Below, piece by piece: positions 6,462 to 39,577 of a stretch of 64,000 nt of DNA (position 1 is the first letter of the stretch; each line of letters starts with the position of its first letter). The translations under genes and the position numbers were made by a program. Location: positions 124,001 through 188,000 of the forward strand of contig NZ_FOZP01000003.1 of NCBI RefSeq assembly GCF_900116115.1. Reading direction: 5' to 3'. Below the pieces are notes generated by a model, which was not told the DNA's origin, did no database searches, and saw only the letters and a list, made by a program, of their open reading frames with translations. Source of the stretch: Lutibacter maritimus (GTDB lineage: Bacteria; Bacteroidota; Bacteroidia; Flavobacteriales; Flavobacteriaceae).

Positions 6462-6504
6462 TGACTTTAATCATTTTTAACGGATAATTAATTCAGTAAA
6501 TTTG
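6462..6504 (+). promoter_or_regulatory. CRP/FNR-type activator site plus -7 element, before the MORN-like gene
   Basis: TGAC-TTTA-ATCA at 6462-6473 is followed, after exactly 23 bp, by the Bacteroidetes -7 element TAAATTTG at 6497-6504. No TTG is visible at the -33 position, as expected for an activator-dependent promoter. The dyad centre is 29.5 bp from the first base of the -7 element, close to -41.5 from the probable start of transcription. The same geometry recurs at three other promoters in this window. Confidence 0.75.
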
Positions 6505-6526
6505 ATGTTACTTTAAAAGTCAGATT

Positions 6527-6886
6527 ATGAAAAATTTATTACTTTTTTTTGTCCTTCTATTCCTTTCAATATCAACTTATTCCCAAACAAAATACTTACC
6601 AAAAACTGAAACAAAAGGCAATTTACAAGAAATTACGTTGTATTACGAAAATGGCACAATAATGCAACATGGCTTTTACACAAAAGAAGGTAAATTACAC
6701 GCATCTTGGGAAAGTTATAATACAGATGGAACCAGAAAATGTTTAGCAACCTATAACAACGGTGTAAAAGTTGGTGTTTGGACTTACTGGAATAAAGATA
6801 AAGTTACTAAAATAACGTACGAAAATAATAAGGTTTTAAAAATTGAAGAATTTGATGCTAAAGAATTAATTAAAAATACTTACTAA
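6527..6886 (+). CDS. Secreted MORN/YwqK-like repeat protein
   Basis: 119 residues with a cleavable signal peptide (hydrophobic residues 3-16, likely cut after TYSQ). The mature part has about three copies of the Y.NG/DG..K..G.w..Y repeat (YYENGTIMQHGFYTKEGK, YNTDGTRKCLATYNNGVK, VGVWTYWNKDK), as in MORN and YwqK-type proteins. The nonspecific database label 'toxin-antitoxin YwqK antitoxin' should not be read as a function. It is monocistronic, with a convergent neighbour only 5 bp downstream. Its promoter carries the CRP/FNR-type dyad described just upstream, which links an otherwise anonymous envelope protein to the proposed oxygen-limitation regulon. Confidence 0.8.
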   Translation: MKNLLLFFVLLFLSISTYSQTKYLPKTETKGNLQEITLYYENGTIMQHGFYTKEGKLHASWESYNTDGTRKCLATYNNGVKVGVWTYWNKDKVTKITYENNKVLKIEEFDAKELIKNTY

Positions 6887-6891
6887 CATAT

Positions 6892-7503
6892 TTATTGGCG
6901 AATATTTCTTTTAGATTCTTTAATACTATTATTCATTCTTCTGTTATACTCAAAATTTTCACGTTTTTCCTCAATTGTTACAGGAACTTCTGTATCAATT
7001 TCTAATGAATTTTGAACATCTTCGGCTTTATAAATAGTATTAATTTTTGAATTTAAAGCTGTATACAATTCTAAAATTTTACCTACCTCTTCTTTAACTT
7101 CATCTTTTTTAATTGATGAAATTGTAGCCATATCAGCCAATCTTAAAGTTTCATTGTGTAAAACATTAAATCGTGCAATAACACTTAAATCTTTTAACTT
7201 TTCAACACGAATAGAATCTTTCATTAATTTCACCAAATCAGCCAATTCCTGAGCATTTGAAAGTGCTTCAGCACTACTTACATTATAAAATTTAAGTATA
7301 AATTCATCCACATTTTCATACTCTTTCCATTTAGAAATATCTTCTTTAGCTCTTGGAACCAAAGTTTCTCCTAATTGGTATGAAATTCTATCACTTACCT
7401 CTACAGAATCTTCAGAATCTGCAACTTCTTCCATAGGTACAGTTCTTTTACATGAAAAATTCAACAATAAAATGAACAATAAAAAACTATATAAATACTT
7501 CAT
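6892..7503 (-). CDS. Hypothetical lipoprotein, all-helical
   Basis: The frame is open further upstream, but the ATG at 7503 gives a good lipoprotein signal (MKYLYSFLLFILLLNFSC, lipobox NFSC). The mature protein of about 185 residues is predicted helical, highly charged and rich in Glu, Lys and Ser, with a C-terminal segment rich in Arg/Asn. I recognise no domain. A weak -7 element (TACTTTTG on the minus strand, 7529-7522) lies just upstream of this start, which supports choosing it over the longer frame. It converges on the MORN-like gene with a 5 bp gap and is divergent from the threonine dehydrogenase gene. Confidence 0.7.
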   Translation of the reverse strand: MKYLYSFLLFILLLNFSCKRTVPMEEVADSEDSVEVSDRISYQLGETLVPRAKEDISKWKEYENVDEFILKFYNVSSAEALSNAQELADLVKLMKDSIRVEKLKDLSVIARFNVLHNETLRLADMATISSIKKDEVKEEVGKILELYTALNSKINTIYKAEDVQNSLEIDTEVPVTIEEKRENFEYNRRMNNSIKESKRNIRQ

Positions 7504-7609
7504 TATAAAATTAATTGACTTCAAAAGTACTAATAAATAAAATGTTTTGTAAAAAAACATGTCATTTTCATAAAAAACAATAGTAGCTAATTTCAAATTT
7601 TAATTTCAG

Positions 7610-7617
7610 TATATTTG
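7610..7617 (+). promoter_or_regulatory. Promoter -7 element for the threonine dehydrogenase gene
   Basis: TATATTTG matches the Bacteroidetes TAnnTTTG -7 consensus and lies 27 bp before the ATG. I see no matching TTG at the -33 distance and no CRP/FNR-type dyad at the position used by the other promoters. Confidence 0.45.
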
Positions 7618-7644
7618 AAACTTAAATAATTTGATTTTTTTATA

Positions 7645-8601
7645 ATGAATAAATCCATTTTAATAATTGGTGCTTGTGGCCAAATTGGCACTGAATTAAC
7701 TTTAAAATTACGTGAAATTAATGGCATTAATAACGTAATAGCTTCTGATATTAGAGAAGGTAGCAAAGAATTAATGCAATCCGGACCTTTTGAATTTATA
7801 AATGCTATGGATTATCATTCAATTTTAGCAATTATAGAAAAATATAGCATTAATGAAGTGTATTTAATGGCAGCTATGCTTTCTGCAACTGGCGAAAAAT
7901 TTCCAGCAAAAGCTTGGGAATTAAACATGAATTCGCTTTTTAATGTATTAAACATTGCCAAAGAAGGTAAAATACAAAAAGTATTTTGGCCAAGTTCAAT
8001 TGCTGTTTTTGGACCTACAACACCAAAAGAAAATACCCCGCAAGAAACTATTATGGAACCATCAACCGTATATGGCATTAGTAAACAAACTGGTGAACGA
8101 TGGTGTGAATATTATTTTAATAAATATGGCGTTGACGTTAGAAGCATCCGTTACCCAGGAATTATAAGTTGGAAAACTAATCCAGGCGGAGGAACTACCG
8201 ATTATGCTGTTGAAATTTATCACAATGCACTTTTACTTGGTAAATACAATTCCTTTTTAAACAAAGAAACTAAATTACCAATGATGTATATGGATGATGC
8301 AATTGAAGCAACCATTCAAATTATGGATGCCAAACCTGAAAATATAAAGGTTCGATCGTCTTACAATTTAGCCGCAATGAGTTTTACTCCTGAAGAAATT
8401 GCACAAGAAATAAAAAAAATTGTGCCAGAGTTTAAGATTTCGTATCATTCAGATTTTAGACAAAAAATTGCTGACAGTTGGCCGAAAAGCATTGATGATT
8501 CTAGAGCGAGAGAAGATTGGGGATGGAAACATCAATTTAATCTAAAAAAAATGAGTGAAAGTATGTTGCACAGCCTAAAAATAAAATATGATGTTTTATA
8601 A
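7645..8601 (+). CDS. L-threonine 3-dehydrogenase, short-chain (SDR/epimerase) type
   Basis: 318 residues. An N-terminal Rossmann fold has the glycine-rich motif GACGQIGTEL (about residues 8-17). The active-site pair is Ser in WPSSIAVFG and YxxxK in YGISKQTGE (about 143-152). The sequence closely follows the extended SDR threonine dehydrogenases known from Flavobacterium (for example F. frigidimaris), which oxidise L-threonine to 2-amino-3-ketobutyrate with NAD+. A related UDP-sugar epimerase is the main alternative, but the N-terminus and overall length favour threonine dehydrogenase. The gene stands alone between a -7 element and a strong terminator; no KBL lyase gene is adjacent. Confidence 0.82.
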   Translation: MNKSILIIGACGQIGTELTLKLREINGINNVIASDIREGSKELMQSGPFEFINAMDYHSILAIIEKYSINEVYLMAAMLSATGEKFPAKAWELNMNSLFNVLNIAKEGKIQKVFWPSSIAVFGPTTPKENTPQETIMEPSTVYGISKQTGERWCEYYFNKYGVDVRSIRYPGIISWKTNPGGGTTDYAVEIYHNALLLGKYNSFLNKETKLPMMYMDDAIEATIQIMDAKPENIKVRSSYNLAAMSFTPEEIAQEIKKIVPEFKISYHSDFRQKIADSWPKSIDDSRAREDWGWKHQFNLKKMSESMLHSLKIKYDVL

Positions 8602-8605
8602 AACC

Positions 8606-8638
8606 AAAACCCTTGATAGCTATCAAGGGTTTTTTTTG
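8606..8638 (+). terminator. Rho-independent terminator after threonine dehydrogenase
   Basis: The near-continuous palindrome AACCCTTGA-TAGCTA-TCAAGGGTT runs straight into a T8 tract, only a few bases after the stop codon. It separates the dehydrogenase from the regulatory region of the next operon. Confidence 0.92.
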
Positions 8639-8720
8639 CAATATTCATATCATTATTAAAATAACTAATAATCAACACTTTAAATTAAAAAAATAATTAA
8701 ATTTGTTGAATTTAACACAC

Positions 8721-8756
8721 GCTAAAATTACTAAAACGTTTTAGTAGTTTTAGAGC
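8721..8756 (+). promoter_or_regulatory. Long palindromic operator candidate before the mce/decarboxylase operon
   Basis: The core ACTAAAACGTTTTAGT at 8730-8745 is a perfect 16-base palindrome. It extends on both sides (GCTAAAAT... / ...TTTTAGAGC) with one substitution and a 2-base insertion, giving about 36 bases of imperfect dyad. There is no T run, so it is not a terminator. It lies just upstream of the CRP/FNR-type site and is a good candidate for a second, possibly metabolite-sensing, regulator. Confidence 0.55.
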
Positions 8757-8761
8757 AAATA

Positions 8762-8804
8762 TGACATCTATCATATTTTTAACTTTTACTATACTCTAAT
8801 TTTG
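8762..8804 (+). promoter_or_regulatory. CRP/FNR-type activator site plus -7 element, before the methylmalonyl-CoA operon
   Basis: The dyad ATATGAC-ATCT-ATCATAT has its core TGAC-N4-ATCA at 8762-8773. Exactly 23 bp later comes the -7 element TAATTTTG (8797-8804). The flanks match the nos site in 13 of 14 half-site positions. Transcription should start near 8809, leaving a leader of about 75 bases before the epimerase ATG. No -33 TTG is visible, consistent with activator dependence. Confidence 0.78.
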
Positions 8805-8883
8805 TTATCTAAACTAGAATAAGCAAAAAACTTCACTTCTCCTTTAGGAATAATTAAAAAATAATACTAAAAAATATATAATT

Positions 8884-9288
8884 ATGAATATTTCACATAT
8901 TGAACACATTGGAATAGCTGTAAACAACCTAGAAGAATCAATAAAATACTATGAAGATGTTTTGGGAATGAAATGCTACGCAGTAGAAGAGGTTGTTGAT
9001 CAGAAAGTGAAAACAGCCTTTTTTTTGGTAGGTACTACAAAAATTGAATTATTAGAAAGCACTTCTCCAGATGGACCAATTGGTAAGTTTATAGAAAAAA
9101 AAGGACAAGGAATTCATCACATTGCTTTTGCTGTTGATGATGCAACAGAAGCATTAAAACTAGCTGAAGAAAGAGGCGTTGCATTAGTAGACAAAGTATC
9201 TAGAAAAGGTGCTGAAGGTTTAAATATTGGCTTTTTACACCCAAAATCAACACACGGAGTGTTAACAGAACTTTGTTCAAAAAAATAA
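8884..9288 (+). CDS. mce: Methylmalonyl-CoA epimerase
   Basis: 134 residues, a single vicinal-oxygen-chelate domain of two beta-alpha-beta-beta-beta units. Metal ligands are visible as His in IEHIGIAV (residue about 7), His in GIHHIAFAV (mid protein) and Glu in the C-terminal GVLTELC. It interconverts (S)- and (R)-methylmalonyl-CoA, joining the decarboxylase/carboxylase (S form) to the mutase (R form). It is the first gene of the operon, with the regulatory region immediately upstream, and is followed after 25 bp by the carboxyltransferase subunit. Confidence 0.95.
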   Translation: MNISHIEHIGIAVNNLEESIKYYEDVLGMKCYAVEEVVDQKVKTAFFLVGTTKIELLESTSPDGPIGKFIEKKGQGIHHIAFAVDDATEALKLAEERGVALVDKVSRKGAEGLNIGFLHPKSTHGVLTELCSKK

Positions 9289-9313
9289 TAAATAAAAAGA
9301 AAATTTATATAAA

Positions 9314-10873
9314 ATGGCAAATCAAGATAAAATCAATGAGTTAATTGAAAAAAGAGCCAAAGCAAAACTAGGCGGTGGAGAAAAAAGAATTGATTCACAA
9401 CACGCAAAGGGAAAATTAACCGCTCGTGAACGTATTGATATTCTTTTAGATGAAGATAGTTTTGAAGAATTTGATATGTTTGTAACACACAGAACCAAAT
9501 CATTTGGTTTAGACAAACAAATTTACCTTTCTGACGGTGTTGTTACAGGTCATGGAACTATTGATGGAAGAATTGTTTATGTTTTTTCTCAAGATTTTAC
9601 AGTATTTGGAGGTTCGCTTTCTGAAACTTATGCACTTAAAATTTGTAAAATAATGGACATGGCAATGAAAATTGGTGCTCCAGTTATTGGATTAAATGAC
9701 AGTGGTGGTGCGCGTATTCAAGAAGGTGTTAGATCTTTAGCTGGTTATGCCGAAATTTTCCAACGTAACATTATGGCATCTGGAGTAATCCCTCAAATAT
9801 CTTCAATTTTAGGTCCTTGTGCAGGTGGAGCAGTTTATTCACCAGCATTAACAGATTTTACCATAATGACAGACCAAACAAGTTACATGTTTGTTACAGG
9901 TCCAAAAGTTGTACAAACAGTTACAGGTGAGATTGTTACAACAGAACAATTAGGTGGTGCTAATATACATTCAACAAAATCTGGTGTTTCTCATTTCCTT
10001 GCTGAAAATGATGAAGAAAACTTATTATTAATCAGAAAATTAATGAGTTACCTTCCATCAAATAATTTAGAAGAACCACCATCAATTGTTTGTGATGATC
10101 CAATTGATAGATTGGATGATATATTAAATGAAATGATTCCTGAAAACCCAAATCAACCTTACGATATTGTTGATGTAATTTCTGTAATTGTTGATAATGG
10201 TGAATTTACTGAAGTTCACAGAAATTATGCACGAAATATTTGTGTTGGCTTTGCTCGTTTTAATGGTAGATCAGTTGGTATTGTTGCTAACCAACCAAAA
10301 TACTATGCAGGTGTGTTAGACATTGAAGCTTCAAGAAAAGCTGCAAGATTTGTTCGTTTTTGCGACGCTTTTAACATTCCTATTGTAACACTTGTTGACG
10401 TTCCAGGATTCTTGCCAGGAACTGGTCAAGAATACGGTGGTATTATTCTTCACGGAGCAAAATTATTATTTGCTTATGGTGAAGCTACCGTTCCTAAAGT
10501 AACCATTACATTACGTAAATCTTACGGTGGAGCACATGACGTTATGAGTTGTAAACAATTACGTGGAGATTTAAACTACGCTTGGCCAACTGCCGAAATT
10601 GCAGTAATGGGAGCTAAAGGAGCCATTGAAGTACTTGAAGGTTCTAACATAAGAAAAATTGAAGATGCCGAAGAAAAACTTGAATACATTGAGAAAAAAG
10701 AAGATGAATACAATACCAAATTTGCAAACCCTTACGTAGCTGCAAAATATGGTTTTATTGATGATGTAATTGAGCCAAGAAATACTCGTTTTAGAATTAT
10801 TAGAGGGTTAGAGTTATTAGCAAACAAAAAAGAAGTTAACCCACCAAGAAAACACTCAAATATTCCACTATAA
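9314..10873 (+). CDS. mmdA: Methylmalonyl-CoA decarboxylase alpha / propionyl-CoA carboxylase beta-type carboxyltransferase
   Basis: 519 residues, the full length of the biotin-dependent carboxyltransferase family (two crotonase-like halves). Oxyanion-hole motifs are [16 protein letters not shown] in the N half and SYGGAHDVM in the C half. The enzyme moves CO2 between methylmalonyl-CoA and biotin. Aerobic PCC clusters would normally show a biotin carboxylase gene. Here the following genes are instead the gamma, biotin-carrier and beta subunits of a sodium pump, so the decarboxylase role (as in Propionigenium and Veillonella MmdA) is favoured. A biotin carboxylase elsewhere could still make it part of PCC. 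The stop overlaps the next ATG (TAATG). Confidence 0.9.
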
Positions 10874-11235
10874 TGTTATACATGAAATTATACATCGACC
10901 AAATAAGTGAAGGTTACGTAATATTAATTACAGGTTTATTAATTGTATTTGGTGCCTTACTATTATTAACTGCGTTTTTTAAATTTGGATTACCTGTATT
11001 GCTATACATTTATAAAATTATTACCAAAGGAAGAGATAAAAAAATTAAAGATATATCTCCTAATGTTAATGAACAATTTACAGGTGAAATTGCAGCAGCA
11101 ATATCTACAGCTATACATTTATATTTAAAAGAACAACACGATGAAGAAAATGCAGTTCTTACAATAAAGCAAGCTCGAAAATTATATTCACCTTGGAGTT
11201 CGAAAATATACGGAACGCATAATAGACTCAGATAA
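10873..11235 (+). CDS. OadG-like gamma/delta subunit of the Na+-pumping decarboxylase
   Basis: 120 residues with one N-terminal membrane helix (about 14-40: YVILITGLLIVFGALLLLTAFF) and a charged cytoplasmic tail, matching the OadG/MmdD fold. This small subunit anchors the soluble carboxyltransferase to the membrane beta subunit. The first ATG overlaps the upstream stop; a second ATG at 10882 is also possible. Divergent sequence is normal for this family, and position between the alpha and biotin-carrier genes is the strongest evidence. Confidence 0.82.
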   Translation: MLYMKLYIDQISEGYVILITGLLIVFGALLLLTAFFKFGLPVLLYIYKIITKGRDKKIKDISPNVNEQFTGEIAAAISTAIHLYLKEQHDEENAVLTIKQARKLYSPWSSKIYGTHNRLR

Positions 11236-11289
11236 ATTAATGATTATTAGTACACAAGGATAAAACCTTTAACTATAAAAATATATAAA

Positions 11290-11709
11290 ATGAAAAATTT
11301 TAAATTTAGAATATACGATAACAATTACAATGTTAAAATTGTTTCGCACGAAGATAATATTATTGACCTGGAAGTTAACGGAACAGCATATTCTGTTAAA
11401 TTAAAAGAAGAAGTTAAGGTTTCCAAAACTCCTACTTTAGTTAGATCGGCATCAAAAAGACCTGCTGAATTACTGAAAGTTAATCCAAGTTCTTCAAACA
11501 CAAAAATTGTGGCTCCAATTCCTGGTACAGTATTATCAATTGATGTAAATATTGGTGATGAAGTTAAGGTTGGAGACAGACTTCTTGTTTTAGAAGCTAT
11601 GAAAATGGAAAACAATATAACTTCAGAAAAAGCAGGAAAAGTTACAGCAATTCAAGTAAAAATTGGTCAACAAGTTTTACAAAATGAAGTAATGATTGAA
11701 CTAGCATAG
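11290..11709 (+). CDS. mmdC: Biotin carboxyl carrier subunit
   Basis: 139 residues. The C-terminal half is a biotinyl domain (about 70-139) with the biotinylation motif EAMKM, Lys105 being the acceptor. The N-terminal 45 residues form a small beta domain, joined by a linker rich in Ser and Pro (about 46-70) that replaces the Ala/Pro hinge of other decarboxylases. It shuttles carboxybiotin from the carboxyltransferase to the membrane pump. Confidence 0.92.
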   Translation: MKNFKFRIYDNNYNVKIVSHEDNIIDLEVNGTAYSVKLKEEVKVSKTPTLVRSASKRPAELLKVNPSSSNTKIVAPIPGTVLSIDVNIGDEVKVGDRLLVLEAMKMENNITSEKAGKVTAIQVKIGQQVLQNEVMIELA

Positions 11710-11764
11710 GAACTTTAAGAGTTATAGCATAATAAATAAGCTATAACACATAAAAAGAAAAAAC

Positions 11765-13090
11765 ATGAAAAAACTATTTATAATATTTTCTGTATTGTCC
11801 TTATTGGTATTTATTAGACCAGCACTTGGGATAAATACTAATTCAAATGCACAAAGCACATTACCCGTTTCAACTGTAGAACAAGTTGAAGAAAATTCTT
11901 CTGAAAGTTTTGTTGATGAAGCATTTGATGGAATTAAACAATTTTATTCTTACACAGGATTTGCAAATGCTGAAGGGGGTAATTTAATTATGATTTTTAT
12001 TGGAATCATATTTATTTACCTTGGAATTAAATTTGATTATGAACCCCTTTTACTAATTCCAATTGGAACTGGTGTAATACTTGGTAACATACCATTTGTT
12101 GCAGGTAACCAAACTGGTATTTACGAAACAGGTTCAGTTTTAAATTACTTATATTTTGGTGTTGTAAAAGGTATTTATCCTCCATTAATTTTCTTAGGAA
12201 TTGGAGCAATGACCGATTTCTCATCGTTAATTGCAAATCCAAAATTAATGTTATTAGGTGCAGCGGCTCAAATTGGTGTATTTGCCACATTTTTAGGTGC
12301 ATTATATTTAGGATTTAATCTTCCTGAAGCTGGTGCAATTGGAATTATTGGTGGAGCCGACGGACCAACTGCAATTTTCCTTTCATCTAAATTAGCAAAC
12401 GGTATTAACATATTACCAGACGGCACAACTGTTAAAAACTTAATTGGCCCAATAGCTATTGCAGCTTATTCATATATGGCATTAGTACCTGTTATACAGC
12501 CACCTATTATGAAATTGTTAACATCAAAAAAAGAGCGATTAATTAGAATGAAACCACCAAGAGCGGTTTCTCAAAAAGAAAAAATGATTTTCCCAATTGT
12601 TGCTTTATTGTTAACTACTTTTATTTCGCCAAGTGCATTGCCATTATTAGGAATGTTATTTTTTGGTAACTTATTAAAAGAATCTGGAAGAACTGAAAGA
12701 TTAGCAGATACTGCACGTACAAAATTAATTGATATTGTAACTATTCTTTTAGGTGTAACTGTTGGAGCATCTACACAAGCTGATATCTTTATTACTAAAG
12801 ATTCTATGTTAATTTTTGGCTTAGGTGCAATTTCATTTGTAATAGCAACAATGGGAGGTTTATTATTTGCTAAGTTCATGAATTTGTTCTTAAAAGGTGA
12901 TGAAAAAATAAACCCATTAATTGGTGCCGCAGGAGTTTCTGCAGTTCCAGATAGTGCTAGAGTTGTTCATGCAGAAGGATTAAAAGCTGATAAAAACAAC
13001 TATTTATTAATGCACGCTATGGCACCAAACGTAGCTGGTGTAATTGGTTCTGCTATTGCTGCGGGTATCATATTAAGTTTTTTAGGATAA
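11765..13090 (+). CDS. mmdB: Na+-translocating decarboxylase beta subunit (OadB/MmdB)
   Basis: 441 residues. Compared with the core family, it has an N-terminal extension: a signal-like helix (1-23), then about 35 polar residues. The conserved pore motif GGADGPTAIFLSSKLA is present, with the Asp known to bind Na+ and carboxybiotin protons in Klebsiella OadB. So are the C-terminal motifs GVSAVPDSARV and APNVAGVIGSA. Around nine to eleven membrane helices and re-entrant loops are visible. It decarboxylates carboxybiotin and exports Na+ with consumption of a proton. Its presence makes this operon an energy-conserving system. Confidence 0.95.
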   Translation: MKKLFIIFSVLSLLVFIRPALGINTNSNAQSTLPVSTVEQVEENSSESFVDEAFDGIKQFYSYTGFANAEGGNLIMIFIGIIFIYLGIKFDYEPLLLIPIGTGVILGNIPFVAGNQTGIYETGSVLNYLYFGVVKGIYPPLIFLGIGAMTDFSSLIANPKLMLLGAAAQIGVFATFLGALYLGFNLPEAGAIGIIGGADGPTAIFLSSKLANGINILPDGTTVKNLIGPIAIAAYSYMALVPVIQPPIMKLLTSKKERLIRMKPPRAVSQKEKMIFPIVALLLTTFISPSALPLLGMLFFGNLLKESGRTERLADTARTKLIDIVTILLGVTVGASTQADIFITKDSMLIFGLGAISFVIATMGGLLFAKFMNLFLKGDEKINPLIGAAGVSAVPDSARVVHAEGLKADKNNYLLMHAMAPNVAGVIGSAIAAGIILSFLG

Positions 13091-13138
13091 AATGAATGTT
13101 GTTATTTAAAAAATAACAAATATTAAATATTATTAAAA

Positions 13139-14428
13139 ATGAAAATACCAAATATAATGACAGCCGAAGAAGCTGTTAAATTAATTAAATCAGGAGATAG
13201 AATTTTAATTCAAGGAGGATCAGCTACACCACAAACTTTAGTAAAAGCAATGGTAAACCGTGCACCGGAATTAAAAGGAGTTGAAATTGTTCATTTACAT
13301 ACTGAAGGAGCTTGTGGTTATACGGCACCTGAATTAAGAGAAAGTTTTCACACAAACGCTTTCTTTATTGGAGGAAATATTAGAAAAATGATTGGTGATA
13401 CAGCAGATTATATTCCAATTTTTTTAAGTGATATTCCAAGTTTATTCCGTCAAGGATATATGAATTTAGATGTTGTTTTAGTAAATGTTTCTCCACCAGA
13501 CAAACACGGTTTTTGCTCTTTAGGCGTATCTGTAGATATTGTAATTTCTGGAATTGAGCAAGGAAAAACTGTAATTGCGCAAATAAATCCAAAAATGCCA
13601 AGAACTTTTGGTGATGCATTAGTACATTTAAATAACTTTAGTGCTTGTGTATTATTAGAAGAAGAAATTTACGAAATGAAATTTGTAGATCCTTCTGAAG
13701 AAGAAAAAGCAATTGGTAAAAATATTGCCGAAATAATTGATGATGGCGCTACGCTTCAAATGGGAATTGGTGGTATTCCAAACGCTGTTTTAACATTTTT
13801 AACCAACCATAAAGATTTAGGAGTACATACAGAAATGTTCTCAGAAGGAATTGTTGATTTAGTTGAAAAAGGTGTTGTAAATGGTTCACAAAAAAAAGTA
13901 AATCCTTATAAAATTGTTTCAGGATTTGCTATGGGAACTCGCCGTTTATACGATTTTATGGATGACAATCCTGAAATTGAAATGAAAGATATTGCCTATG
14001 TAAATGATACTGCAATCATCCGTCAAAACCCAAAAGCAACTGCAATTAATTCTGCCATTGAAATTGACATTACTGGACAAGTTTGTGCTGATTCTATTGG
14101 AACAAGAATGTTCTCAGGAGTTGGTGGACAAATGGACTTTATGCGTGGAGCTGCTTTATCACCTGGAGGCAAACCAATTATTGCAATTACTTCTACAACT
14201 TTAAAAGGTGTTTCTAAAATTGTACCAATGTTAAAACAAGGTGCTGGAGTAGTTACTACACGTGCACATGCAAGATTTGTTGCTACTGAATTTGGAGTTG
14301 CTGAACTATTTGGACGAAACTTAAAACAACGTGCACAATCATTAAGAGACATTGCACATCCAGACCATAAAGAAGAACTTGATAAAGCTATTTTTGAAAG
14401 ATTTGGAAGCAGTTTAATGGTTAAATAA
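13139..14428 (+). CDS. Acetyl-CoA hydrolase/transferase-family CoA-transferase (probably succinate/propionate or acetate)
   Basis: 429 residues, the usual length of the 4-hydroxybutyrate/succinate CoA-transferase branch of the family. The N half has LIQGGSATPQTLVKAM. The C half has the glycine loop GIGGIPNAVL followed by the segment GVHTEMFSEGIVDLVEKG, which should contain the catalytic Glu. Placed between the decarboxylase and the mutase, it most simply moves CoA from propionyl-CoA to succinate and so closes the succinate-to-propionate cycle. Acetate as partner cannot be excluded. Confidence 0.85.
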   Translation: MKIPNIMTAEEAVKLIKSGDRILIQGGSATPQTLVKAMVNRAPELKGVEIVHLHTEGACGYTAPELRESFHTNAFFIGGNIRKMIGDTADYIPIFLSDIPSLFRQGYMNLDVVLVNVSPPDKHGFCSLGVSVDIVISGIEQGKTVIAQINPKMPRTFGDALVHLNNFSACVLLEEEIYEMKFVDPSEEEKAIGKNIAEIIDDGATLQMGIGGIPNAVLTFLTNHKDLGVHTEMFSEGIVDLVEKGVVNGSQKKVNPYKIVSGFAMGTRRLYDFMDDNPEIEMKDIAYVNDTAIIRQNPKATAINSAIEIDITGQVCADSIGTRMFSGVGGQMDFMRGAALSPGGKPIIAITSTTLKGVSKIVPMLKQGAGVVTTRAHARFVATEFGVAELFGRNLKQRAQSLRDIAHPDHKEELDKAIFERFGSSLMVK

Positions 14429-14499
14429 TTTTATTTAAATTGCTGATATAAATCTAATATTGTCAACAATTTACCATATCTCAATTAATATAAAATATT

Positions 14500-16308
14500 A
14501 TGAATGATACAAAAAAACCTCTTTTTCAAGATTTCAAACCTGTTACAAAACAGGAATGGATAGAAAAAGCAAACATCGATTTAAAAGGTGCTGATTTTAA
14601 CAAAACCCTAGTTTGGAAAAACTTAAGTAAAGTTGAATTTCAACCTTTTTATACCAAAGAAGACAACCAAATTTTATTAAATAATACTGGTAAAAACTCA
14701 CAATCTTTGGTTAACTACAGACTTATTGCTGTTAACACTAATGAAGAAGCAAATAAATTAGCCTTAAAAGCAATTGAAGAAGGTATAAACGGATTAATTT
14801 TTAATGTAACCGATAAAACAACAGCTTCAATATTATTAAAAGGAATTGATTTAAATACAATAACTGTTTCATTTCTTTTAGATAAAAATGCAATTGCTTT
14901 TGCCAAAGAATTTGTTGCTTTTGCCAAAGAACAAAATATTGCGAAAGAAAACTTAAAAGGATATTTTAATTCAAATATTATATCAACCTATGTAACCACA
15001 GGAAATTTAGATATTTCTCAATTTGAAATTGCAGCAGAACTTATTAAATTAACTGCTGAATATCCAAATTTTAAAGCGCTTACAATTTCTGGAAGTGAAT
15101 ATTTAAATTCCGGTGCAAATCAAGTTCAAGAAGTTGCCTACACATTAAATTCATTAATTTTTGTTACTGAAAAATTAATTGAAAAAGGAATAACTGCCAC
15201 AGCTATTTTTAATAACTTAAATTTTGATTTTGCTATTGGTTCAGAATATTTTATTGAAATGGGTAAATTTAGAGCTTTTAATGTTTTACTAAATGAAATA
15301 GCTTTAAAATACAAAATCAGTACATTTTCAAATACAATAAATGCAAAAACAGCTATTTGGAACAAATCTATAACTGATGCTCACACTAATTTATTGCGTG
15401 CAACAACAGAAGCAATGTCAGCAATATTAGGAAATGTTGATGGTGTTTTAATTGATCCTTATGATAAAGAGTTTAAAAACCCTTCAGATTTTTCAAGCAG
15501 AATAGCCGGAAATATTTCAACAATATTAAAAGAAGAATCTTACTTTGGTAAGGTTTCTAATCCTGTTGACGGATCATATTATATTGAAGAAGTAACTTCT
15601 AAAATTGCCGAAAAAGCATTAGAATTATTCAAATCTATTGAATCAAACGGAGGATTTTACGCTTCATTTGAAAGCGAATTAATTCAACAGCAAATTGCTG
15701 AAATTCGTCAAGAAAAAATCAAACTTTTAAGTCAACGAAGATTAGTAATGGTTGGTGTAAATAAATATCCAAATTTAATGGAAAAAATTACTTCAAGCAT
15801 TCTATCAAATGGCACTAAAGATTCTACTTCAAAAGTTTTAAAACCAAGAAGAGCAGCCTTAGAAATTGAAGCAATTAGAAAAACAACCGAAGAATTGGTA
15901 GAAAAAACAGGTATTAGACCTGTGGTTGAATTGGCTAGTTTTGGAAACTTAACAATGCGTAAAGCTAGAGCCGCTTTCTCTTATGATTTTATTGGCGTTA
16001 GCGGATTTAATGTTCAACAAGAAAAAAGTTTTGAAAGTGCACAACAAGCTGCAGAAGAAAGTGCAAAATCAGATTCTAATGTAGTTGTAATTTGTAGTTC
16101 AGATCAAGATTATGACGAAAGTGCTTTAACTTTTGTAAAAACATTTAGAACAATAAATACTAACAAAGTATTATTATTAGCTGGAGCACCAGCAAACTTA
16201 AGCGAATTAACCGACGCTGGTTTAGATGGTTGTGTAAATATGAGATCAGATGTGATAGCTACAATTTCTAGTATTCAACAAAAAGTTCAAAAAACAATTA
16301 AATCCTAA
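14500..16308 (+). CDS. mutA: Methylmalonyl-CoA mutase small subunit
   Basis: 602 residues, slightly shorter than other small subunits. A degenerate TIM barrel spans about 40-430, with the family segment [20 protein letters not shown] near 353-372. A C-terminal flavodoxin-like domain follows, in which the cobalamin-binding DxHxxG motif of the large chain is absent ([16 protein letters not shown] stands there instead). This is normal for the non-catalytic partner of the heterodimer. Its stop is 6 bp before the large-subunit start, so the two are cotranslated. Confidence 0.94.
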
Positions 16309-16313
16309 GAAGT

Positions 16314-18443
16314 ATGAAACCAGATTTTTCAGATATAAAACTAAATTCAGCTGCTAAACAAACCGCAGCTCCAGAAAATAAAGACGTTTGGAATACTCCT
16401 GAAGGAATACCAGTAAAAAAACATTTTACAAAAGAAGATATTTCAGAAGCAGAGCATTTAGGTTTTGTAGCAGGTTTACCTCCATTTTTAAGAGGACCAT
16501 ACAGCACAATGTACGTTACACGTCCTTGGACAGTACGTCAATATGCTGGATTTTCAACTGCAGAAGAATCAAATGCCTTTTATAGAAGAAATCTTGCTGC
16601 TGGTCAAAAAGGACTTTCAGTTGCCTTTGATTTAGCTACGCACCGTGGTTACGATTCAGATCACCCACGTGTAACAGGTGATGTTGGTAAAGCTGGTGTT
16701 GCCATAGATTCTATTTTAGATATGGAAATTTTATTCGATCAAATTCCATTAGATAAAATGTCTGTTTCTATGACAATGAATGGTGCCGTTTTACCAATTA
16801 TGGCATTTTATATTGCTGCAGCAAAAAAACAAGGTGTGGCATTAGACCAATTAAGCGGAACCATCCAAAATGATATTTTAAAAGAGTTTATGGTGCGTAA
16901 TACATATATTTATCCACCATTACCTTCAATGAAAATTATTGGTGATATTTTTGAATATACCACTAACAATATGCCAAAATTCAATTCAATTTCAATTAGT
17001 GGTTACCATATGCAAGAAGCTGGTGCAACTGCTGATATTGAGTTAGCTTACACGTTAGCAGATGGTATGGAGTATATTAGAACCGGATTAGCTTCTGGTT
17101 TAAAAATTGATGAATTTGCGCCTCGTTTATCTTTCTTCTGGGCTGTTGGAATGAACCACTTTATGGAAATTGCTAAAATGCGTGCTGCACGTATGCTTTG
17201 GGCAAAAATCATAAAATCATTCAATCCACAAAACCCAAAATCAATGGCATTGCGTACGCATAGTCAAACGTCGGGATGGAGTTTAAGTGAGCAAGATCCG
17301 TTTAACAACGTAGCACGTACTTGTATTGAAGCTATGGCTGCTGGTTTAGGTGGAACACAAAGTTTACACACAAATGCTTTAGATGAGGCGATTGCATTAC
17401 CAACAGATTTCTCTGCTCGTATTGCTCGTAATACACAAATATTTATTCAAGACGAAACACAAATTACAAAAGCTGTTGACCCTTGGGCTGGAAGTTATTA
17501 TGTAGAGTATTTAACACAAGAAATTGCTAAAAAAGCTTGGAAATTAATTGAAGAAGTTGAGGAGTTAGGTGGAATGGCAAAAGCTATTGAAACTGGAGTT
17601 CCAAAAATGCGTATTGAAGAAGCTTCGGCACGTAAACAAGCACGTTTAGATTCTGGTCAAGATATTTTAGTTGGGGTAAATAAATTCCAAACTGCTGAAA
17701 AATCTGATATTGAAATATTAGAAGTAGACAATACTGTTGTTAGAGATTCTCAAATTGAACGTTTGAAAAAACTAAGAGCAAATAGAAATCAAACAATTGT
17801 AGATAAAAACTTAGCAGCATTATCAAAATGTGCCGAAACTGGTAAGGGTAATTTATTAGCTTTAGCTGTTGAAGCTGCTGAAAATTTTGCTACTTTAGGT
17901 GAAATTTCTGACGCTTTAGAGGTTCATTTTGGAAGACATAAAGCTGATACTAAATTAATAAGTGGTGTGTATAGTAAAGAAGTAAACAACGATAGCACTT
18001 TTGTGAAAGCTCAAAAATTAGCTGATAAATTTGCTGAAATTGAAGGTCGTAGACCAAGAGTTATGATTGCCAAAATGGGACAAGATGGACATGATAGAGG
18101 TGCCAAAGTGGTGGCTTCTAGTTTTGCAGATTTAGGCTTTGATGTTGATATGGGATCATTATTCCAAACTCCTGAAGAAGTTGCAAAACAAGCAATTGAA
18201 AACGATGTACACTTTGTAGGTGCATCAAGTTTAGCTGCGGGTCATAAAACATTAATTCCTCAATTAATTGGTGAATTAGAAAAATTAGGAAGACCTGATA
18301 TTATGGTTTTTGCAGGTGGTGTAATTCCTGCTCAAGATTATGATTATTTATTAGAAAGAAAAGTAGCTGCCATTTTTGGTCCTGGTACTGTAATTTCTGA
18401 ATCAGCCATAAAAATTATGGAATTATATTTAGAACAAGAATAA
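16314..18443 (+). CDS. mutB: Methylmalonyl-CoA mutase large (catalytic) subunit
   Basis: 709 residues, full length. The substrate-binding TIM barrel occupies about 1-560 (for example [16 protein letters not shown] near 64-80, [20 protein letters not shown] near 98-117). The cobalamin domain at about 580-709 has DGHDRGAKV, whose His is the lower axial ligand of adenosylcobalamin. It rearranges succinyl-CoA to (R)-methylmalonyl-CoA and back. It ends the operon, before a strong terminator. The B12-loading GTPase MeaB is encoded 1.9 kb away on the other strand. Confidence 0.97.
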
Positions 18444-20382: not shown

Positions 20383-20425
20383 CAAAGATAAGAATAATGG
20401 TAAAATGAGTTGTTGATAATTGTAA
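20383..20425 (-). promoter_or_regulatory. meaB promoter with degenerate CRP/FNR-type site
   Basis: On the minus strand, TTAC-AATT-ATCA (20425-20414) is one base off the TGAC-N4-ATCA core. It lies 23 bp before the -7 element TATCTTTG (20390-20383). The spacing equals that of the four full-consensus sites, which is the main reason to take it seriously. Confidence 0.45.
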
Positions 20426-27574: not shown

Positions 27575-27617
27575 CAAATGTAATGTTCAAAAATGAGACG
27601 AAATATGATAAAAATCA
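27575..27617 (-). promoter_or_regulatory. CRP/FNR-type activator site plus -7 element of the nos operon
   Basis: The perfect dyad ATATGAT-N4-ATCATAT has its core TGAT-N4-ATCA at 27606-27617. On the minus strand, 23 bp separate it from the -7 element TACATTTG (27582-27575). No -33 TTG is visible. The dyad is the classical FNR/DNR-like half-site arrangement that governs nos genes in many bacteria, here in the class II position. Confidence 0.82.
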
Positions 27618-27655: not shown

Positions 27656-27698
27656 TGACTTATATAACATATTGATGTATAAATATGTTGTATTTTTG
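27656..27698 (+). promoter_or_regulatory. Promoter with degenerate CRP/FNR-type site before the thioredoxin-like gene
   Basis: TGAC-TTAT-ATAA (27656-27667) is one base short of the core consensus, with the left half perfect. It lies 23 bp before the -7 element TATTTTTG (27691-27698). A TTG at 27672-27674 is only 16 bp from the -7 element, closer than usual. The rest of this 234 bp divergent region holds the nos promoter and operator. Confidence 0.45.
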
Positions 27699-27775: not shown

Positions 27776-28375
27776 ATGAATAACAAACTAATAGAGAGTA
27801 GTTTATTAAAAGGACTAACCTATAAAGAATATAGAGAAAAGATTAAAAATTTACTTTCACAAGGGCTGTCAACAGGCGTAGAACAATCGGAAGCTTTGTT
27901 AGATTATAGCTTATTAAATGATAAGCGTATGGATAGGCTTGATAAAACCTTAAAAATTTCTGATGAAACTTTAAATTCATTAAAACATCTTAATAAAAAA
28001 TTTCAGTTTTTAGTAATTGCTGAAGGTTGGTGTGGAGATGCGGCTCAAATTTTACCAATTTTAAATTTACTTGCCGAAGCTTCTACCAAAATTGATTTAA
28101 AAATTGTATTTCGTGATGAAAATGAAGATTTAATGAATCATTTTTTAACAAATGGAAGTAAATCTATTCCAAAAGTAATAATTGTTGATGAAAAAAATAC
28201 TGTGATTAATTCTTGGGGGCCTAGACCTTTTATTGCAACTAAAATGGTGCAAGATTATAAAGAAAAAAATGGTGCACTTGATGCTGAATTTAAAAAAGAT
28301 CTACAAATCTGGTACAATAAAGATAAAGGAAATAGCACACAGGAAGATTTAATAAAACTATTAAAAGCTTCATAA
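27776..28375 (+). CDS. Thioredoxin-like protein (Thioredoxin_9 type, single Cys)
   Basis: 199 residues. The thioredoxin fold spans about 75-170, with FLVIAEGWCGDAAQILPILN in place of the usual active site. The first Cys is present, but the second (WCxxC) is Ala, so it cannot form the ordinary disulfide. The cis-Pro loop is seen in SIPKVIIVD. An N-terminal helical part (1-60) precedes it. Such proteins are widespread in Bacteroidetes and of unproven function, perhaps thiol or peroxide related. It is divergent from the nos operon and shares its 234 bp regulatory region. Confidence 0.82.
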   Translation: MNNKLIESSLLKGLTYKEYREKIKNLLSQGLSTGVEQSEALLDYSLLNDKRMDRLDKTLKISDETLNSLKHLNKKFQFLVIAEGWCGDAAQILPILNLLAEASTKIDLKIVFRDENEDLMNHFLTNGSKSIPKVIIVDEKNTVINSWGPRPFIATKMVQDYKEKNGALDAEFKKDLQIWYNKDKGNSTQEDLIKLLKAS

Positions 28376-32278: not shown

Positions 32279-32282
32279 CATT

Positions 32283-32675: not shown

Positions 32676-32676
32676 A

Positions 32677-33879: not shown

Positions 33880-33928
33880 TTAGTTCGGTTTTACAAAAAC
33901 GTATAATTTATTTTGGCTATCACTCACA

Positions 33929-35018: not shown

Positions 35019-35037
35019 AATCAAAAAATTAAGTGCG

Positions 35038-35090
35038 CAAAAATACATAATTTAAATTATTTATGAATTCTTAATTAAATTGTATTTTTG
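35038..35090. promoter_or_regulatory. Divergent -7 elements for dus and the TolB-like gene
   Basis: Minus-strand TATTTTTG (35045-35038) serves dus; plus-strand TATTTTTG (35083-35090) serves the TolB-like gene, ending 13 bp before its ATG. The intervening AT-rich 37 bp would have to hold both -33 regions, so the two promoters share polymerase contact space. No CRP/FNR-type dyad is present. Confidence 0.45.
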
Positions 35091-35103
35091 AAATTCTAAA
35101 AAT

Positions 35104-36213: not shown

Positions 36214-36220
36214 TTATAAA

Positions 36221-37201
36221 ATGAATAAAAAATATAATTGGGCAATTTTAGGCTGCGGAAAAATTGCAAAAAAATTCGCGTTAGAATTAAAAGGGTTACC
36301 AAATGCTAATTTATACGCAGCAGCTTCTAGAAATTTAGATAATGCAACTAGTTTTGCTTCAGAATTTGGATTTGAAAAAACCTATGATTCTTATAAAGAA
36401 ATGGTAAAGGATCCATCTGTCGATATTGTTTATATTGCAACGCCACATAGTCACCATTTAGAGCATAGTTTACTTTGCTTAAATCATAAAAAAGCTGTGT
36501 TGTGTGAAAAAGCATTTGCCATAAACTCTAAAGAAGTTTTACAAATGGTAAATGCTTCAAAAGAAAACAATACATTTTTAATGGAGGCTTTTTGGGTACG
36601 TTTCCGTCCAAAATTTAAAAAAGTATTAGAACTTATAAAAAATGAAGATTTAGGAAAATTAAAAATGGTAAAATCTGATTTTAATTTTTTAGGAGAATAC
36701 AACCCAGAAAGCAGGTTATATAATTTAAATTTAGGAGCCGGATCTTTATTAGATATTGGAATTTATCCAGTATTCACTTCGCTAATGTTATTAGGTAAAC
36801 CAACACAAATAAAAGCAATACCACAATTCAGTCCAACTGGTTCTGAAGAAAGCATTACCGTTTTTTTAAGTTATAAAAACGGTGCTACAGCTATTTTAAA
36901 CTCAAGTTTTAAAAGTGATTATAAAAATAATGTGGAATTAAGTTTTGAAAAAGGACATATTGCATATGATCGCTTTTCAAACGAACCAATATTATTACAA
37001 ACAACAACTAAAAATCAACAAATAACTTTTGATGCAGGCCCAAATTTAGGATATCAATTTGAAGCTATGCATGTAATGGAATGTTTAGATAAAAACTTAA
37101 CTGAAAGCCCTACTTTACCATTATCAACTAGTATTGATTTAATGAGTATTTTAGATACAATTAGAAAAGAAGCAGGTATAGTTTTTCCTAACCACGACTA
37201 A
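36221..37201 (+). CDS. Gfo/Idh/MocA-family oxidoreductase
   Basis: 326 residues. The NAD(P)-binding Rossmann domain has GCGKIAKKFA (about 11-20), the sequence ATPHSHH (about 76-82) and CEKAFAINSKE (about 96-106) with the conserved EK pair. The C-terminal alpha/beta domain carries the GAGSLLDIGIYPV motif (about 170-182). The closest recognisable pattern is of the dihydrodiol dehydrogenase/glucose-fructose oxidoreductase branch. The substrate is probably a sugar or polyol; it cannot be named. Confidence 0.9.
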   Translation: MNKKYNWAILGCGKIAKKFALELKGLPNANLYAAASRNLDNATSFASEFGFEKTYDSYKEMVKDPSVDIVYIATPHSHHLEHSLLCLNHKKAVLCEKAFAINSKEVLQMVNASKENNTFLMEAFWVRFRPKFKKVLELIKNEDLGKLKMVKSDFNFLGEYNPESRLYNLNLGAGSLLDIGIYPVFTSLMLLGKPTQIKAIPQFSPTGSEESITVFLSYKNGATAILNSSFKSDYKNNVELSFEKGHIAYDRFSNEPILLQTTTKNQQITFDAGPNLGYQFEAMHVMECLDKNLTESPTLPLSTSIDLMSILDTIRKEAGIVFPNHD

Positions 37202-37238
37202 AACAAAAATTTACGTGTTAAAGGCAAAACAATTTAAT

Positions 37239-37246
37239 TATATTTG
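37239..37246 (+). promoter_or_regulatory. lepA promoter -7 element
   Basis: TATATTTG matches TAnnTTTG and lies 27 bp before the lepA ATG at 37274. It also overlaps the TTG at 37244 that would begin a longer lepA frame, which argues against that longer start. Confidence 0.5.
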
Positions 37247-37273
37247 CAAAAATTAGAGACAGGATTACGAAGT

Positions 37274-39070
37274 ATGAAAAACATAAGAAATTTTTGCATT
37301 ATTGCCCATATTGATCACGGTAAAAGCACCTTAGCAGACAGACTGTTAAGCTTTACCGGAACAACAACTGCACGTGAAGAACAAGCACAGCTATTAGATA
37401 ATATGGATTTAGAACGTGAACGTGGCATTACCATTAAAAGTCACGCAATTCAAATGGATTACACCTATGAAGGGGAACAATACGTGTTAAATTTAATTGA
37501 CACACCAGGTCACGTTGATTTTTCCTATGAAGTTTCCAGATCTATTGCTGCCTGTGAAGGTGCGCTTTTAATTGTTGACGCAGCCCAAAGTATTCAAGCG
37601 CAAACAATTTCAAACTTATATTTAGCTTTAGAACACGATTTAGAAATAATACCAGTATTAAACAAAGTAGATTTACCAGGCGCAAATCCTGAAGAAGTTA
37701 CAGACGATATTGTAGATTTATTAGGTTGTAAACCTGAAGAAGTAATTCACGCAAGTGGAAAAACCGGCTTTGGTGTAGATGTAATTTTAAAAGCAATTAT
37801 TGAAAAAGTTCCTGCACCTAAAGGTGATATAAACGCACCTTTACAAGCCTTAATTTTTGATTCTGTATACAATTCATACAGAGGAATTGAAACGTATTTT
37901 AGAGTTGTAAATGGTGAGATAAAAAAAGGTCAGAAAATTAAATTTATGGCCACCAATAAAATTTATGATGCCGATGAAGTTGGAACTTTAAAATTAAATC
38001 AAGTAGCAAAACAAAGTATAAAAGCTGGTGATGTTGGGTATTTAATTACCGGTGTTAAAACTGCCAGTGAAATAAAAGTTGGTGATACAATTACGGATGC
38101 TTTAAACCCAACAGATAAAAGAATAGAAGGTTTTGAAGATGTAAAACCAATGGTATTTGCAGGTATTTATCCTGTTGATACTGAAGAATATGAAGAATTA
38201 CGTTCTTCAATGGAAAAATTGCAGTTAAATGATGCTTCCTTGGTATTTATTCCTGAAAGTTCTGCAGCACTTGGTTTTGGTTTCAGATGTGGGTTTTTAG
38301 GCATGTTGCACTTAGAAATTGTGCAGGAAAGATTAGAAAGAGAGTTTGATATGACAGTAATTACTACAGTTCCAAACGTATCTTACCATGCCTTTACTAA
38401 CAAACATCCTGATACGGTATTATTAGTAAATAACCCTTCAGATTTACCTGAACCATCAAAATTAAACCGAGTAGAAGAGCCTTTTATTAAAGCTACAATA
38501 ATTACAAAGTCTGATTTTGTTGGGCCAGTAATGAGTTTATGTATTGAAAAAAGAGGTCAAATTATCAATCAAACCTATTTAACTCCAGAACGTGTTGAAT
38601 TAACTTTTGATATGCCTTTAGCTGAAATTGTTTTCGATTTTTACGACCGTTTAAAAACCGTTTCAAAGGGGTATGCTTCATTTGATTATCATCCAATTGG
38701 AATGAAAGCTTCAAAATTAGTAAAAGTTGATATTTTATTAAATGGCACTTCTGTTGATGCACTTTCTGCACTAATTCATGCAGATAACGCTTATAATATT
38801 GGTAAAAAAATGTGCGAAAAATTACGACAATTAATTCCTCGCCAACAATTTGATATTCCTATTCAAGCAGCTATTGGTGCTAAAATTATTTCGCGAGAAA
38901 CTGTAAAAGCACTTAGAAAAGATGTTACTGCAAAATGTTATGGTGGTGATATTTCTCGTAAACGTAAATTACTTGAAAAACAAAAGAAGGGGAAAAAACG
39001 TATGCGTCAAGTTGGAAACGTAGAAATTCCACAAGAAGCATTTATGGCTGTATTAAAATTAAATGATTAA
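37274..39070 (+). CDS. lepA: Elongation factor 4 (LepA)
   Basis: 598 residues from the ATG at 37274 ([19 protein letters not shown]). GTPase motifs are AHIDHGKST (P-loop), RERGITIKS (switch I), DTPGHVDF and NKVDLPGA. Domains follow the EF-G-like order and end in the LepA-specific C-terminal domain ([37 protein letters not shown]). It back-translocates or remodels stalled ribosomes. Unlike in enterobacteria, lepB does not follow. Confidence 0.97.
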
Positions 39071-39075
39071 AAAAT

Positions 39076-39110
39076 AAAAAAGCACTGATAGATTTCAGTG
39101 CTTTTTTATT
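39076..39110. terminator. Bidirectional terminator between lepA and ferredoxin
   Basis: Stem AAAAAGCACTGA / TCAGTGCTTTTTT with a 6-base loop is flanked by A and T runs on both sides. It serves the convergent lepA and ferredoxin transcripts. Confidence 0.92.
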
Positions 39111-39122
39111 TTAATACAAAGA

Positions 39123-39473
39123 TTACTCTCCGTGTAACCAAGCTTTTTTAGCTAATAACTGTTCTTCAGTTTCAACGTGGTCTTCATCAGGAACACAACA
39201 ATCAACTGGACAAACAGAAGCACATTGTGGCTCATCATGGAAACCTTTACATTCAGTACATTTATCAGTTACAATAAAGTAAAACTCATCAGACTTTGCT
39301 TCATGCATTTCTTCAGCATCAGCTGTTCCACCATTTGGCAAAGTAATTGTTCCACTTAAAGCAGTTTCGTCAGCATACGCCCACTCACTATCTGGTTCAT
39401 AGATTGCATTGTTAGGACACTCAGAAATACAAGCATCACAGTTTATACATTCATCGGTTATTTTAATAGCCAT
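39123..39473 (-). CDS. 2[4Fe-4S] ferredoxin (Alvin-like)
   Basis: 116 residues. The first cluster motif is CINCDACISECP (C9, C12, C15, C19). The second has an enlarged loop, CTECKGFHDEPQCASVCPVDC, as in Alvin-type ferredoxins of low potential. A 30-residue acidic insertion lies between them and a short helical tail at the end. It carries low-potential electrons. It is divergent from korAB and shares a CRP/FNR-type site with it, so it is the natural electron acceptor of KorAB and possible donor to the NADH-module-less complex I nearby. Confidence 0.94.
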   Translation of the reverse strand: MAIKITDECINCDACISECPNNAIYEPDSEWAYADETALSGTITLPNGGTADAEEMHEAKSDEFYFIVTDKCTECKGFHDEPQCASVCPVDCCVPDEDHVETEEQLLAKKAWLHGE

Positions 39474-39504
39474 GTTTACTAAATTTTAATATTTATTAAT
39501 TTCA

Positions 39505-39577
39505 CAAAATTATACATTTTTACCTAAAGCTATGTGACAAAAGTCATTTACTGTCTTAAAAAGTAAATTTATATTTG
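39505..39577. promoter_or_regulatory. Shared CRP/FNR-type site between divergent ferredoxin and korAB promoters
   Basis: The perfect dyad TGAC-AAAA-GTCA (39535-39546) is followed, 23 bp to the right, by TATATTTG (39570-39577) for korAB. On the minus strand, 22 bp to the left lies TAATTTTG (39512-39505) for ferredoxin. Neither promoter has a clear -33 TTG. One activator dimer could serve both. An additional dyad ATGCT-ATA-AGCAT at 39583-39595 lies just after the korAB start. Confidence 0.75.

Follow-up and report, generated by a model that had tools for sequence, protein, structure and literature searches.

A 64,000-nucleotide stretch of the Lutibacter maritimus genome (contig NZ_FOZP01000003.1, positions 124,001 to 188,000; hereafter the window) carries a palindromic dyad, TGAYN4RTCA, that recurs at a fixed distance before the Bacteroidota –7 promoter box, TAnnTTTG. 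Judged from sequence, these dyads mark a real genome-wide regulon that is conserved within the genus and that works like an FNR regulon, both in the genes it holds and in its geometry on the promoters of Bacteroidota. We consider it quite probable that they are the operators of an FNR-type low-oxygen regulon whose main activator is most likely an FNR homologue encoded beside ccoI, and that a second kind of CRP/FNR protein, a receiver-CRP fusion, probably reads the same site.

A dyad at a fixed distance from the –7 box

We describe each composite element, a dyad plus a –7 box, by the gap in base pairs (bp) between its two parts. Eight dyads occur in the window, and five of these lie exactly 23 bp before a TAnnTTTG box. 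An earlier note on this DNA had listed four such composites, all of which we recovered in place with gaps of exactly 23 bp; its number was an underestimate, as there are five in the window and about 28 in the genome, and its single spacing holds for gap 23 but leaves out gap 22, which is used too. Neither part is unusual by itself: eight dyads compare with 4.2 expected, a count reached by 4 of 100 shuffles, and 132 TAnnTTTG boxes compare with 136 expected. The signal therefore lies in the joint spacing, and under uniform placement the probability that at least five of eight dyads have a box exactly 23 bp away on either side is about 2e-12, which agrees with the earlier view that chance agreement is very unlikely. 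The three remaining window dyads were set aside, one (8614) being a terminator-like hairpin stem followed by T8 and the other two (29381 and 60244) lying inside open reading frames (ORFs).

Scanning the whole genome (3.48 Mb in 20 contigs) with the composite pattern, and with the same pattern read backwards as a control, gave 19 exact matches at gap 23 against none in the control. Over gaps 10–40 (31 spacings) there were 38 matches versus 11 in the control, of which 9 fell at gap 22, 19 at gap 23, 2 at gap 24 and 8 over the other 28 spacings; with one mismatch tolerated, the count at gap 23 rose to 59, versus 11 in the control. Nearly all of the composites with gaps of 22 to 24 bp (27 of 30) lie 10–87 bp before an ORF start, so that the comparison proposed earlier, between composites upstream of genes and inside them, came out clearly on the upstream side. 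Of the other three, L008 and L029 are inside long ORFs; L037 is 375 bp upstream of hypB and overlaps in part an opposite frame of 96 codons. Across the 28 sites left when the two intragenic ones are omitted, the half-site is TGAT in 21 and TGAC in 7, and a T precedes TGAY in only 4. The earlier remark that these promoters lack a –33 TTG is accurate (none of the six window dyad promoters has one), but the feature does not discriminate: it occurs at 2 of the 28 genomic dyad sites and at 2 of 10 intergenic TAnnTTTG boxes without a dyad.

The sigma-A –7 box of Flavobacterium psychrophilum is placed at –12 to –5 in a published start-site study (PMC9723704); with a gap of 23 bp the dyad would then span –47 to –36 and be centred at –41.5, as the earlier note had proposed, and with a gap of 22 bp at –40.5. 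By this reckoning from sequence the dyads are at the class II position, where an activator would cover the –33 region. A CRP/FNR-family dimer bound there would activate a primary-sigma promoter in class II fashion, in place of the –33 contact.

This architecture is kept among relatives. Orthologues were sampled from 40 genomes per protein, giving 87 genus-level loci over four promoters, not counting the split nosZ of G317. A locus passed if it had an exact dyad, a gap of 22–24 bp and no more than one mismatch in the –7 box. The composite was kept at 79 of the 87 loci, against 0 of 87 when the upstream DNA was reversed. It was present at all 20 methylmalonyl-CoA epimerase (MCEE) promoters, always with gap 23 and with an exact –7 box in 13; at 17 of the 18 nos loci examined, with gap 23 each time; at 23 of 25 ferredoxin promoters (gap 22 in 15, gap 23 in 8); and at 19 of 24 nuoA promoters (gap 22 in 9, gap 23 in 9, gap 24 in 1). 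Column identities, computed from those passing loci that share the most frequent gap (n = 9, 15, 20 and 17), were 1.00 in the dyad (true by construction), 0.93–1.00 in the –7 box (partly so), 0.63–0.75 in the spacer and 0.70–0.81 in the 20 nucleotides upstream. With spacer columns 63–75% identical, the length of the gap is kept while its letters drift. The check on relatives proposed in the earlier note is thus borne out within the genus, whereas the few loci examined outside it have no composite (0 of 10 for the MCEE matches that are paralogues or come from beyond the genus), though composites in general occur widely in the family.

Composite numbers also track candidate regulators across the phylum. 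In 296 genomes we found 816 composites versus 92 in the control, with 182 genomes having a match. FNR presence was scored at E ≤1e-38, a threshold set after viewing the list (the next genome, G072, at 1.1e-35, was counted as absent), and fusion presence at E ≤1e-60, within a gap in values from 6.3e-61 to 6.7e-42; at most nine FNR and seven fusion candidates were scored per genome, and a regulator can be missed. Genomes with both regulators (n = 17) held 233 composites versus 12 in the control (mean 13.7), those with FNR only (n = 42) 288 versus 25 (mean 6.9), those with the fusion only (n = 26) 114 versus 11 (mean 4.4), and those with neither (n = 211) 181 versus 44 (mean 0.86). Composites were more numerous in FNR genomes overall (Mann-Whitney, 1e-20) and within the family (0.026). 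The architecture may extend well beyond the class of the window: G271, a genome of another class, has 32 composites versus 1 in the control and an FNR match with an E value of 3.3e-53.

Genes behind the composites

Many of the genes predicted to lie under these operators are low-oxygen genes, including those for cbb3 oxidase, nos, anaerobic haem synthesis, pflB, Kor, pckA, feoAB and usp. NCBIfam matches above cut-off behind composites were HemG, methylmalonyl-CoA epimerase, KorA, YfhL ferredoxin, PckA, VorB-type KorA, NosZ, ArsR, Fhs, CcoN, FeoB and HypB, together with NrfH (L269), which follows a one-mismatch composite. Matches below cut-off were NuoA, PpdK, PflB, SulP, a rhodanese-like protein and the copper ATPase adjoining fnr, which is CcoI by position; some of these low scores are due to a gene being cut by the edge of the fetched locus. 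Pfam added two Usp proteins, the fasciclin protein and a Crp-family regulator, and a norC/norB-like pair (L031), Pit (L017), CcoS (L034) and FeoA (L036) were read by eye. This target set fits an oxygen-responsive activator of the CRP/FNR type (the earlier note had supposed one that senses oxygen or nitrogen oxides), and oxygen or redox state would then be the signal.

Table 1. Composite elements of the window and the genes discussed with them. Composites are given as dyad (start) and –7 box (start).
Feature	Coordinates	Strand	Gap (bp)	Lies before, or comment
TGACTTTAATCA (6462), TAAATTTG (6497)	6462..6504	+	23	small secreted-looking protein, 6527-6886
TGACATCTATCA (8762), TAATTTTG (8797)	8762..8804	+	23	MCEE, start 8884
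TTACAATTATCA, one mismatch	20383..20425	-	23	meaB, 20380-19346
TGATTTTTATCA (27617-27606), TACATTTG (27582-27575)	27575..27617	-	23	fasciclin protein
TGACTTATATAA, one mismatch	27656..27698	+	23	thioredoxin-like protein, 27776-28375
TGACAAAAGTCA (39535), TATATTTG (39570)	39535..39577	+	23	korA/korB, 39645-42517
Same 39535 dyad, TAATTTTG	39505..39546	-	22	YfhL-type 4Fe-4S ferredoxin, 39473-39123
TGATTTAAGTCA (42537), TACATTTG (42572)	42537..42579	+	23	nuoA, start 42666; absent from the earlier note
Complex I operon nuoABCDHIJKLMN	42666-52478	+		11 subunits, NuoA-D and NuoH-N
FNR homologue	G000:C19:282989-283672	-		divergent from ccoI

Within the window (Table 1), the operator at 27575..27617 is followed by the fasciclin protein, a cytochrome c-like protein that was called by eye and has no NCBIfam match, and a Sec-type nosZ (26416-24440). 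Genes for a methylmalonyl-CoA decarboxylase/Na+ pump and a mutase (9314-18443) lie downstream of the epimerase, and MeaB was assigned by family search. The small protein behind the first composite has weak MORN_2 similarity (E 3.6e-5, below the Pfam cut-off), and a by-eye counterpart of the thioredoxin-like protein in genome G053 has an exact dyad (L280), though neither of the two matches NCBIfam. KorAB, the ferredoxin and the complex I operon lie under neighbouring dyads, and none of NuoE, NuoF and NuoG is encoded among the ORFs of that operon (the rest of the genome was not searched for them); this arrangement suggests a complex I with ferredoxin rather than NADH as donor. The nuoA dyad forms the centre of a terminator-like hairpin that follows korB at 42528-42557 and was flagged on the minus strand; operator and hairpin share one palindrome both here and in 13 of the 19 genus-level orthologues that keep the operator.

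When bound, the activator would switch on cbb3 oxidase and its copper loading, nor, nos, nrfH, anaerobic haem synthesis, Fe(II) uptake and Usp, along with an anaerobic carbon route made up of KorAB, ferredoxin and the 11-subunit complex I, PflB, PckA, PpdK and the methylmalonyl-CoA Na+ pump. Elsewhere in the genome, a second Crp-family regulator (L013, 827-1477, minus strand) has an exact composite in front of its own gene, and a nearby rhodanese-like gene (L014) also has one, making a regulatory cascade possible. At another locus (L001), hemG follows an operator and is itself followed by a GAF/PAS sensor-like protein (read by eye), a possible partner of the receiver-CRP fusions. A long protein behind a gap-22 composite (L033, 1-1446, minus strand) has no Pfam match.

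Candidate regulators and competing readings

Nine proteins of the genome match HTH_Crp_2, eight of them above cut-off, and one of the nine is encoded divergently from ccoI. This FNR homologue has the cNMP-binding barrel (PF00027) and HTH_Crp (PF13545) domains above cut-off, its best NCBIfam model is Fnr (NF008365, E 2.1e-25), and its nearest named FNR relatives are from Lutibacter, at up to 98% identity. Its predicted model (mean predicted local distance difference test score 85, with residues 1–6 below 50) aligns with holo-FNR (5e44) at a Foldseek TM of 0.83. The cluster cysteines of Escherichia coli FNR are C20, C23, C29 and C122. An alignment of the 30 best FNR matches out of 59 has four invariant cysteines (C4xxC7, C53 and C106) in all 30; C4, C7 and C106 align with cluster cysteines of Aliivibrio fischeri FNR, with C106 at the C122 position. 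In the model C53 lies on strand 50–56 and C106 on strand 103–109. In the topology of a cNMP-type jelly roll these two would be strands 3 and 8, which are neighbours, so that C53 could replace the C29 ligand. The protein is a candidate for an FNR in the strict sense: two sequence features of FNR are not found in it, its four cysteines match the FNR set in part, and its oxygen-labile [4Fe-4S] cluster is putative.

The regulator's own promoter carries the dyad as well. Upstream of fnr we found a mismatch-free dyad at 47 of 47 loci from Lutibacter, Flavobacterium, Galbibacter, Joostella and Paenimyroides (of 51 loci, L134, without a gene start, and L147–L149, which are distant, were left out). On the ccoI side, the 36 Lutibacter-group loci have a –7 box at gap 22 (35 loci) or gap 21 (one), and none was seen at the 11 loci of the other four genera. 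On the fnr side, 42 of the 47 loci have a –7 box at a gap of 2, 8, 10 or 11 bp, so near that a dimer on the dyad would cover part of the promoter; fnr probably represses itself through its own dyad.

The second candidate is a family of response regulators in which a receiver is fused to cNMP-binding and HTH_Crp domains. There are three in the genome, one with PF00072, PF00027 and PF13545 (HTH_Crp_2) above cut-off and two that match it over their full length, and their recognition helix, G-x-x-x-E-[ST]-x-x-R, is close to that of FNR. Such fusions occur in 43 of the 296 genomes, all 43 in the class of the window. Of the fusion loci examined, 32 in number, 10 have just downstream of the fusion gene an exact dyad and, at gap 23, a –7 box with no more than one mismatch; a usp gene adjoins the fusion at 10 of the 32, and 7 of these 10 have a gap-23 composite before usp. 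In three family members whose best FNR match is the fusion itself (G053, G130 and G234), we counted 18 composites versus 2 in the control. Five of the 18 overlap ORFs of at least 90 codons (L277, L279, L280, L281 and L293). Among the others, some in G053 stand before HemN, CcoN, a haem-binding protein and the usp beside the fusion gene, one in G234 likewise before the usp beside its fusion gene, and one in G130 before PckA. The fusions therefore probably read the same TGAYN4RTCA site and, in genomes without FNR, run the regulon wholly or in part, and the single common activator of the earlier note, while supported as to its CRP/FNR type, may in fact be two kinds of protein that share one site.

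These fusion loci, and the composites kept by G053 and G234, could also be taken to mean that the operator serves mainly the fusions, as a phosphorelay regulon, with the FNR homologue an accessory at cco and its own gene. We regard this as unlikely, because genomes with FNR only average more composites than those with the fusion only (6.9 versus 4.4) and every one of the 47 fnr loci has the dyad. It is also rather improbable that a nitrogen-oxide sensor of the DNR, NnrR or HcpR type, instead of an oxygen sensor, activates the set: nos, nrfH and the norC/norB-like pair are among the targets and TGAC is allowed beside TGAT, but most targets (cbb3 oxidase, HemG, PflB, Kor, Feo and Pck) are unrelated to nitrogen oxides, the candidate FNR homologue keeps CxxC and a C122-type cysteine, and the common HcpR2 consensus as given in PMC1274295, GTAACN4GTTAC, has another core. 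In a window that is 70% A+T, with one dyad a plain terminator stem and the nuoA dyad inside a terminator-like one, the composites might finally have arisen by chance, or as terminator hairpins, in AT-rich DNA between genes. This is highly improbable and already contradicted by the 19 matches against none at gap 23, by the 79 of 87 orthologues that keep the composite, and by the 6 of 19 nuoA orthologues in which dyad and gap persist although the outer stem is no longer than 4 bp.

Several observations weigh against an FNR-type regulon led by the ccoI-linked homologue. The Fnr model score of that protein is 89.5 bits and does not reach the cut-off of 228, and Foldseek ranks 2gau and several cAMP-binding CRP structures above FNR, such that similarity of fold does not tell FNR and CRP apart. 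The third cysteine of the homologue does not correspond to C29 of E. coli: the third cysteine of A. fischeri FNR aligns with a non-cysteine, and C53 with an alanine. The FNR recognition helix is ExxSR, with the half-site TTGAT; here the helix is ExxIR (TATESxIR in 29 of 30 orthologues and TATELxIR in L064). For six order-level relatives the match starts at residue 16 or 17, leaving the N-terminal cysteine pair uncovered. At the promoters themselves, the nuoA dyad sits within a longer terminator-like stem (outer stem at least 8 bp) in 13 of the 19 operator-keeping orthologues, and no composite was found at the few loci examined outside the genus (nuoA 0 of 2, ferredoxin 0 of 5, nosZ 0 of 2). 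Phylogeny confounds the co-occurrence, in which 13 of 59 FNR genomes have at most two composites (11 of them from other classes) and eight genomes without an FNR match have at least six (16 in G099), and the signal in FNR-less G130 is weak (4 forward versus 2 control).

Comparison with known systems

The FNR and Anr regulons of Proteobacteria act in class II fashion from –41.5 on genes for cbb3 oxidase and its assembly, nor, nos, anaerobic haem synthesis, feo, usp and pfl. The Lutibacter system resembles them in the CRP/FNR fold, the TGA-N6-TCA core, the –41.5 centre, the targets and the dyad by the regulator's own promoter. It differs in sitting on the Bacteroidota –7 box, in using gap 22 too, in accepting TGAC without requiring the outer T/A of the proteobacterial FNR box, described as TTGATN4ATCAA in PMC1274295, and in a third cysteine that belongs to a barrel strand, not to the N-terminal loop.

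Nearer relatives have been assigned other roles. In PMC1274295, HcpR2 regulons of most Bacteroides species and Porphyromonas gingivalis were predicted to contain hcp only, with the GTAACN4GTTAC consensus and another motif type in P. gingivalis. HcpR2 is likewise a CRP/FNR-family regulator of Bacteroidota in a nitrogen-oxide or anaerobic context, whereas the Lutibacter regulon would be global and its recurrent sites are TGAYN4RTCA (GTAACN4GTTAC was not searched for). A 2021 meta-regulon study describes CRP/FNR proteins from metagenome-assembled Flavobacteriales genomes as MalR-like and predicted to sense carbon, and it found no evidence that they control denitrification (PMC8510549). Our reading differs from that one in that nos carries the operator in Lutibacter, although the proteins compared are all CRP/FNR members of Flavobacteriales. 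The P. gingivalis Crp/Fnr-family structure 2gau is the closest solved structure to the FNR homologue by both sequence and fold; the alignment begins at residue 17, which leaves the N-terminal CxxC uncovered, and C106 aligns with a leucine. Under oxygen limitation in F. psychrophilum, cbb3 oxidase is strongly raised and haem enzymes are raised, and the terms 'fnr' and 'crp' do not occur in the main text of that report (PMC9723704).

Our searches of the freely licensed literature listed no paper on an FNR regulon or a global oxygen regulon of Bacteroidota. Boundaries between oxic and anoxic zones are rich in members of this phylum, and the clade II nosZ found in many of them removes N2O. With a defined operator, spacing and candidate regulator, low-oxygen control would become predictable from sequence in Bacteroidota. 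If the FNR-type reading is true, class II activation operates on the Bacteroidota –7 box, and nos comes under the same switch as cbb3 oxidase and possibly a ferredoxin-fed complex I. More tentatively, and with the balance of our judgment slightly against it, a single operator code at –41.5/–40.5 in Flavobacteriaceae may be read both by an FNR with rearranged ligands (CxxC plus cysteines on barrel strands 3 and 8) and by receiver-FNR-like fusions, so that oxygen and phosphorelay signals would meet at the same promoters and the fusion would have taken over the low-oxygen regulon where FNR was lost. The moved cysteine and the receiver fusions, if confirmed, would represent one DNA code passing between sensor types.

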